Source: Endozoicomonas numazuensis (GTDB lineage: Bacteria > Pseudomonadota > Gammaproteobacteria > Pseudomonadales > Endozoicomonadaceae). Taken from it: a stretch of DNA of 60,283 nucleotides. Of this stretch, positions 58,216 through 58,660 are shown piece after piece. How positions within the stretch are numbered: position 1 is the first letter of the stretch; each line of letters opens with the position of its first letter. The translations under genes were made by a program, and so were the position numbers. The stretch spans positions 540,093-600,375 of the forward strand of contig NZ_JOKH01000003.1 in the NCBI RefSeq assembly GCF_000722635.1. Direction: 5' to 3'. The notes under the pieces are model-generated. The model was not told the DNA's origin. It worked only from the letters and a program-made list of their open reading frames with translations, and ran no database searches.

Positions 58216-58268
58216 TGGAGCGGGAAACGAGACTCGCCCTTGCTATAGAGAGACGACCCCAACCTTGG
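58216..58268 (-). pseudogene. Truncated tRNA-Gly remnant (class 1)
   Basis: The 3' half of tRNA-Gly (acceptor 3' strand with CCA, T arm, variable loop and 3' anticodon stem) matches the intact gene. The T arm is replaced by GTCTCTCTATAGCAAGGGCG, about 11 nt longer, and similarity stops in the anticodon. The same altered T arm recurs at 60181. Confidence 0.8.
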
Positions 58269-58315
58269 CTTGCTATGCACTTCTGCTTGAAGTCATGCAC
58301 ATTTCCTACAGGCAT

Positions 58316-58346
58316 AAAAAAACCAGTCAAACGACTGGTTTTTTTT
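58316..58346 (-). terminator. Terminator-like hairpin of tRNA-Gly
   Basis: AAAACCAGTC / GACTGGTTTT with an AAAC-type loop and runs of A and T on either side, just downstream of the intact tRNA-Gly on the minus strand. Confidence 0.75.
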
Positions 58347-58350
58347 AATT

Positions 58351-58426
58351 TGGAGCGGGAAACGAGACTCGAACTCGCGACCCCAACCTTGGCAAGGTTG
58401 TGCTCTACCAACTGAGCTATTCCCGC
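58351..58426 (-). tRNA. tRNA-Gly(GCC), intact
   Basis: 76 nt including CCA. Acceptor GCGGGAA / TTCCCGC, D arm with GG, anticodon loop TTGCCAA with GCC, standard T loop TTCGAGT. It is the only tRNA-Gly copy in the window with all arms intact. Confidence 0.96.
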
Positions 58427-58457
58427 AATGAAGATAATTTAGGACTTCTTCAAAGTC

Positions 58458-58543
58458 CGGAGCGGGAAACGAGACTCACTCTTTAACTCTGAGGCGACCC
58501 CAACCTTGGCAAGGTTGTGCTCTACCCACTGAGCTATTCCCGC
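58458..58543 (-). pseudogene. tRNA-Gly-like gene with expanded T arm, no CCA (copy 2)
   Basis: Acceptor, D arm, anticodon arm and GCC anticodon are as in the intact gene. The 17-nt T arm is replaced by 27 nt (GCCTCAGAGTTAAAGAGTGA and on), the TTCGA T loop is lost, and the encoded CCA reads CCG. It lies exactly 117 bp from the intact gene in a tandem array. Function uncertain. Confidence 0.85.
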
Positions 58544-58574
58544 AATGAAGATGTTTTAGGACTTCTTCAAAGTC

Positions 58575-58660
58575 CGCAGCGGGAAACGAGACTCACTCTT
58601 TAACTCTGAGGCGACCCCAACCTTGGCAAGGTTGTGCTCTACCCAATGAGCTATTCCCGC
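58575..58660 (-). pseudogene. tRNA-Gly-like gene with expanded T arm, no CCA (copy 3)
   Basis: Same 27-nt T-arm replacement as copy 2, one further base change in the D loop (CATTGGG in place of CAGTGGG on the minus strand), and GCG in place of CCA. It follows copy 2 with the same 117-bp period. Confidence 0.85.

Follow-up and report, generated by a model that had tools for sequence, protein, structure and literature searches.

Decades after tRNA-linked repeats and pseudo-tRNAs were first recognized, most of them still have no known function. The nearest precedent for the locus described here would be the tRNA-linked repeats (TLRs) of E. coli, of which PMC8144298 describes 22 at ten loci, including rttR at tyrTV and rrA/rrB/rrF, each having 18-19 bp in common with the 3' end of the immediately preceding gene. 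According to the same paper they have no known function, except for three sRNAs of rRNA operons located between dual terminators, for which a role of the 3' repeat in guiding RNase E was proposed (PMC8144298). Two other systems are comparable in part: an sRNA sponge that derives, as the 3' ETS of leuZ, from the glyW-cysT-leuZ precursor of E. coli (PMC8166272, PMC8144298), and tRNA-Other, a pseudo-tRNA of Bacillus cereus (PMC3399842). Our literature search found no title or abstract describing the altered tRNA-Gly copies reported below.

The window (the whole stretch of Endozoicomonas numazuensis DNA that was analyzed, 60,283 nucleotides) contains an intact tRNA-Gly(GCC) gene accompanied by altered copies, which together with their relatives in other genomes fall into three classes. 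Class A copies have a complete 5' half and lie mostly upstream of the intact gene, class B copies consist of a 3' half and lie downstream, and class C copies are complete with CCA and occur in one genus (g5). In minus-strand order, the locus contains the following features.

58982..59010, minus strand: promoter-like site TTGACA-17-TAGAAT, upstream of tRNA-Ala (11/12 consensus matches)
58816..58891, minus strand: tRNA-Ala(GGC) (tRNA gene call and Rfam model)
58698..58773, minus strand: tRNA-Glu(TTC) (tRNA gene call and Rfam model)
58575..58660, minus strand: class A copy 2, 3' end GCG, replaced segment 58612-58596 (Rfam tRNA, 41.0 bits)
58458..58543, minus strand: class A copy 1, 3' end CCG, replaced segment 58495-58479 (Rfam tRNA, 43.0 bits)
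58427..58457, minus strand: spacer preceding the intact tRNA-Gly, with the inverted repeat GGACTT-AAGTCC (read in the sequence)
58351..58426, minus strand: intact tRNA-Gly(GCC) with CCA (tRNA gene call; Rfam tRNA, 69.9 bits)
58309..58345, minus strand: terminator-like hairpin T1 and T run (perfect 13-nt inverted repeat, 4-nt loop)
58216..58269, minus strand: class B half-copy with CTCCA retained, replaced segment 58254-58237 (sequence comparison)
58182..58212, minus strand: second terminator-like hairpin T2, a repeat of T1 (terminator by our own reading)

We infer that Ala-Glu-A-A-Gly-T1-B-T2 is one transcription unit. Promoter-like sites occurred at chance frequency in the region (2 found vs 2.8 expected), and T1 is a terminator by our own reading, being absent from the terminator scan output.

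In every class, the 7 nt (including TTC) between tRNA positions 48 and 56 were exchanged for 15-21 nt (15-17 in class A, with 17 in the window; 16-21 in class B; 20 in class C). In the class A copies of the window, everything on the 3' strand beyond position 56 was kept. The region reads GGTC-GCGAGTT-CGAGTCTCG in the intact tRNA-Gly, GGTC-GCCTCAGAGTTAAAGAG-TGAGTCTCG in class A of the window, GGTC-GTCTCTCTATAGCAAGGG-CGAGTCTCG in class B of the window, and GGTC-GCACTTTCTTGTGACAAGAG-CGAACCTCG in class C of genus g5. In class B of the window, the tRNA-like part begins at about 58269, within the anticodon arm, and the 28 nt from 58236 are identical to the 3' end of the intact tRNA-Gly and its trailer.

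An earlier note on this DNA had described an intact tRNA-Gly(GCC) adjoining two tandem copies with a 117-bp period, and this arrangement was borne out. With the Rfam tRNA model, the intact gene scored 69.9 bits against 43.0 and 41.0 bits for the class A copies, both above the gathering score of 29 bits. The retention of the acceptor stem, D arm, and anticodon was likewise upheld, since the model aligned the acceptor, D, and anticodon arms, with 23 nt where 13 were expected. As the note had it, neither copy has TTCGA or CCA; their 3' ends read CCG and GCG, and ARAGORN called neither as a tRNA. The length and identity of the copies exclude a chance origin. By contrast, the claim that the T arm had been lost has to be revised to a replacement of 7 nt by 17 nt. 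A repeated, identical loss also has to be abandoned: the two copies stand in tandem as duplicates of each other, with 97% identity over 117 nt, and the same forms recur across the genus, so that independent T-arm loss in each copy was rejected. Tandem duplication after one event, which the note had offered as one possibility, is confirmed by this identity and by the tandem arrays of the genus. The 117-bp unit comprises a class A copy and its spacer, and similar spacers precede many tRNA-Gly genes and class A copies in the genus. For the copy described as truncated, the different T arm stood, and the description was corrected in that CTCCA is kept and the tRNA-like part starts where given above.

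Class B resembles the E. coli TLRs (PMC8144298) in following a gene and repeating the 3' end of that gene. Class B copies lie in tRNA clusters, and the one in the window follows T1 and sits between two terminator-like hairpins, as in E. coli rrB. The repeat by which TLRs are defined is present in the window's class B, identical to the upstream tRNA-Gly over 21 nt to CCA, or 28 nt with the trailer. Unlike these TLRs, class B retains a tRNA variable loop along with some or all of the anticodon arm and has a conserved hairpin before the repeat. When the sequences were compared, the identity at E. coli tyrV was also found to begin in the T loop (AATCC...), but the preceding sequence is not tRNA-like, and the E. 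coli glyVXY stretch contains no extra 3' repeat. Class A departs further from a TLR in having a tRNA body and in preceding the intact gene, as both window copies do; judged by sequence, it appears to be an upstream variant of a TLR with a tRNA body. Rfam includes an RtT family, and no RtT/rttR match was among the 7 matches obtained at E up to 1 for 58200-58700. The 3' ETS of leuZ is similar in being a functional RNA that is released from a tRNA precursor, and the Gly-Cys-Leu cluster is also a recurrent host locus here, but the ETS is a unique trailer after the last tRNA and not a tRNA-like repeat (PMC8166272, PMC8144298). tRNA-Other (PMC3399842) resembles the altered copies as a tRNA-like gene unlikely to decode; it is a single gene beside an island, whereas the altered copies are multi-copy, lie in tRNA operons, and differ in one defined stretch.

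The distribution of the altered copies was then determined. The same genome contains five more class A copies, of which three complete and one degenerate are on contig C15 and one is at C3:602045. Altered copies were found in 11/11 Endozoicomonas genomes searched and in 26/38 Endozoicomonadaceae genomes, representing 6/8 genera. Two host loci recur in the genus, namely Ala-Glu-Gly arrays and the Gly-Cys-Leu cluster; the cluster was present in all 11 genomes, each time with a pgsA-like ORF within the same fetched stretch. Class A copies precede intact tRNA-Gly at nearly all loci read, often in tandem, the exceptions being G009 L072 at 2402 and G030 L078 at 1101, where Glu or Ala comes next, and G032 L082, which lies at the end of a contig. 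Class B copies come after intact tRNA-Gly or another class B copy, except in G013 (after tRNA-Cys) and G006 L067 (contig end). At G013 L084 (950-1475), tRNA-Cys genes flank each of three identical B-type copies. At G035 L115 (near 956), a short stretch that repeats part of the gene's 3' end directly follows an intact tRNA-Gly and may be a tRNA-linked repeat in the making.

Within the family, a class A query found tRNA-Gly sequence in 27/27 further genomes. The 40 stretches read from these genomes, which cover part of their tRNA-Gly sites only, yielded listed units in 14 genomes and degenerate ones in G020. Twelve of the 38 family genomes had no altered copy in the stretches read, some of them being drafts with contigs ending at repeats, and G021, a single contig, had four intact tRNA-Gly genes and no altered copy. 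In a sample of the order, 9/391 genomes matched the search pattern, every one of them belonging to the 19 that represent the family there, and 0/372 genomes outside the family did so; the pattern is conservative and missed G010, which carries class A copies. In a sample of the class, 12/114 genomes matched and only the genome studied here was a real case. The other 11 matches were intact genes reached via their anticodon stem, and none of the 113 other genomes contained an altered copy detectable with the patterns used, which were tuned to this tRNA-Gly and may let diverged forms escape. Exact class A and class B segments gave 26 and 21 matches in 12 genomes, only at mapped tRNA-Gly loci, and one class A and one class B pattern gave 0 exact matches in viral contigs; a phage-borne or dispersed element was rejected on these grounds.

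Copy number varies widely among genomes and is uncertain, because an N run starts inside a further tRNA-Gly copy at L053 (G000:C3, near 602.0 kb) and contigs of several draft relatives end at repeats. Of 137 unit rows, 133 were kept (61 class A, 54 class B, 15 class C, and three complete copies with other arms), as lower bounds, given that the pattern misses some copies (e.g., G006 L065 at 1337). The four rows dropped were chance matches at L114, L086, and L060 and the intact gene with a partial 3' repeat at L115. The three complete copies with other arms (G033 L080, G036, and G037) were kept out of the energy and distance tests and included in a 27-row alignment. A search of the same genome for aberrant tRNA-Glu/Ala gave four matches; the one covering only query positions 122-208 was the tRNA-Glu at window 60062-60137 and was rejected as an aberrant copy. 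In genus g5, very degenerate tRNA-Gly relics with a still recognizable T-arm segment were observed (L087 at 1590 and 1855, L088 at 2128, and L100 at 1648 and 1913), and in G020 L100 at 1648 CACTTTCTTGTGACAAGAG is exact though the body is largely changed.

We next compared the divergence of the replaced segment, in the 61 class A and 54 class B copies, with a neutral yardstick, the four-fold sites of the pgsA-like ORF. One of these ORFs was confirmed by TIGR00560 (191.4 bits; cut-off, 109.1) and the others were picked by start motif; a neighboring 600-aa ORF (89% identity to E. arenosclerae), found in 2/19 genomes, was set aside in favor of pgsA. For pairs of genomes within the genus, the mean distance was 0.203 for the class A segment vs 0.581 at four-fold sites (55 pairs) and 0.187 for the class B segment vs 0.590 (36 pairs), with the segment below the yardstick in 54/55 and 35/36 pairs, respectively. 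Family-wide, the values were 0.326 vs 0.627 for class A and 0.278 vs 0.624 for class B. Genome pairs share ancestry, and P values of the distance tests are descriptive. The class B flanks behaved like four-fold sites (0.591 for the 34 nt before and 0.592 for the 40 nt after, genus pairs). The 40 nt after class A, mostly spacer before the next copy, were also under the yardstick (0.311); the class A spacer is thus also constrained or young, and the segment is not the sole conserved part in this class. The tRNA-derived class A body had a distance of 0.088, which is not decisive, because conversion from intact genes can produce closeness of tRNA-derived parts. Intact genes do not contain the segment, and conversion from them therefore cannot explain its conservation; conversion among copies acts within one genome. 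In class A copies with degenerate bodies, for which the body-change counts include indel offsets, the segment was identical to that of another genome in G007 L069 and G001 L055 and differed from it by one change in G000 L052 and four in G009 L074. These results clearly demonstrate conservation of the class A and class B segments.

The class B segment with its flanking TCG/CGA is predicted to fold into a bulged hairpin. The summed energy of 15 same-length variants was -85.7, a value reached by 0/1000 sets when mutations were placed at random within the segment (null, -60.2; sd, 7.3) and by 1/1000 when random bases were put at the same places (null, -63.0; sd, 6.2); with the genus only, the counts were 2 and 1 of 1000. 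A first class B null had let mutations hit the flanking tRNA-derived bases, which favored structure, and was discarded; the result held in the segment-confined repeat. In the 27-row alignment (24 class B and the three other copies), 86.6% of the cells of the bulged stem were paired, a proportion reached by 1/500 shuffles, and its covariation score exceeded that of 500/500 shuffles. Pairs with two-sided change were not in excess in the bulged stem of this alignment (138/500 shuffles), RNAalifold reported no two-sided change in class B, and the second, unbulged register showed no covariation. A conserved hairpin in the other classes was not supported, the same two nulls giving 146 and 276 of 1000 for class A and 619 and 311 of 1000 for class C. 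By these folding models, structure is clear for class B only, which keeps its hairpin through sequence change.

The TTC of the T loop is needed for the usual contacts between the D loop and the T loop; with its replacement, these contacts are lost. Neither the class A nor the class B copies of the window combine a TTC-bearing T arm with CCA, the features of a functional elongator tRNA-Gly, and the structure argues against decoding, so that the altered copies would not be able to act as normal adaptors. The TTGCCAA loop is kept in 45/61 class A copies and the exact anticodon hairpin in 21/54 class B copies, and a CGCTCCA end is found in 2/61 class A, 42/54 class B, and 15/15 class C copies. Few class A copies end in CGCTCCA, class B has no 5' half, and a minority of class B copies keep the exact anticodon hairpin; most copies are therefore unlikely to carry glycine. 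Class C, with its acceptor and CCA, could in principle be charged. Annotation calls for caution here, as the Rfam tRNA model accepts class A and ARAGORN names several class C copies tRNA-Gly.

The comparison confirms the altered copies and shows more than local decay: across the family there appears to be a set of tRNA-Gly derivatives that do not decode and whose replaced T arm is conserved. The earlier note had called the copies odd for random decay, and this impression was justified: neither absence nor rapid decay in close relatives was seen, with copies in all the genus genomes and a segment conserved beyond four-fold sites. Its suggestion of a non-translational Gly-tRNA-like RNA survives in part; segment conservation favors a non-decoding role, and glycine carrying is improbable for most copies. 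We give roughly even chances to the reading that the copies are not junk and serve, within the tRNA-Gly precursor, as RNA modules that do not decode. An ancestor within the Endozoicomonadaceae would have acquired tRNA-Gly copies in which the 48-56 stretch (the 5' T stem and TTC) was swapped for a longer segment, and these would then have been amplified in tandem within tRNA-Gly operons. Presumably transcribed as part of the tRNA precursor, they would have been retained as RNA modules, whose tRNA-derived 3' end may be read by the 3'-end maturation machinery. The replaced arm would be the selected part and would either shape processing of the Gly precursor or belong to an excised, non-decoding small RNA. 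More tentatively, and with rather low confidence, the copies may constitute a clade-specific tRNA-Gly-derived RNA family whose replaced T arm acts in trans, as a decoy or small RNA, when tRNA is made; if so, tRNA-Gly synthesis would be coupled to another process.

The main competitor, possible but less probable, is a non-functional tRNA-Gly satellite that arose from one ancestral T-arm accident (insertion or template switch) and was multiplied by unequal crossing-over, its tRNA-like parts kept similar because intact genes converted them. Tandem arrays of variable copy number, degenerate copies, class A copies of G002-G005 whose acceptor 3' strand lacks its outer portion, and G021 without altered copies all accord with such an origin, as do some class B copies of G006 in which GGTC stands opposite AACC, an arrangement expected if the local intact gene had converted them and the pair had not been kept. 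A satellite would account poorly, however, for hairpin retention in class B and for a segment that is absent from intact genes and yet differs between species by 0.19-0.20 vs 0.58-0.59 at four-fold sites. We favor RNA modules over a neutral satellite because the segment is conserved well beyond four-fold sites and copies occur in 11/11 genus genomes; the unsupported class A and class C hairpins, the 12/38 genomes with no copies in the stretches read, and the variable copy number count against this preference. The T loop is a common integrase crossover region, and the resumption of tRNA sequence in the T loop, together with the 28 nt that class B of the window has in common with the intact gene's 3' end and trailer, would suit a DNA site for recombination or attachment, e.g., for a T-loop/3'-end integrase. 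We consider this unlikely, as class A keeps a complete tRNA 5' half, exact segments were confined to mapped tRNA-Gly loci in 12 genomes with 0 matches in viral contigs, and hairpin retention in class B points to a single-stranded structure. Least probable, to the point of being barely credible, is a glycine donor outside translation, in which the copies would be charged and, lacking a normal T arm, would evade EF-Tu in the manner of the staphylococcal cell-wall tRNA-Gly, which is charged with glycine. The CGCTCCA end of 15/15 class C copies, the acceptor stem kept in those read, and the TTGCCAA loop of most class A copies fit such a role; it is contradicted by the near absence of that end in class A (2/61), the missing 5' half of class B, and the loss of the exact anticodon hairpin in 33/54 class B copies.

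The tRNA-derived repeat described here can be traced through 26 genomes, its replacement is seen upstream, downstream, and as complete tRNA-Gly copies, and the segment is conserved while the class B flanks drift like four-fold sites; the purpose of such repeats thereby becomes testable. Two further elements were observed in the window. A 27-nt inverted repeat at 57966-58093 (89% complementary, 74 nt between the arms), REP/MITE-like in appearance, lies between class B and a tRNA-Ala. Group II intron domain matches (RF02001, 105.6 bits; RF01998, 64.7 bits) are located at 59573-59866 on the minus strand, directly downstream of the tRNA-Glu at 60137-60062 and its terminator-like hairpin.
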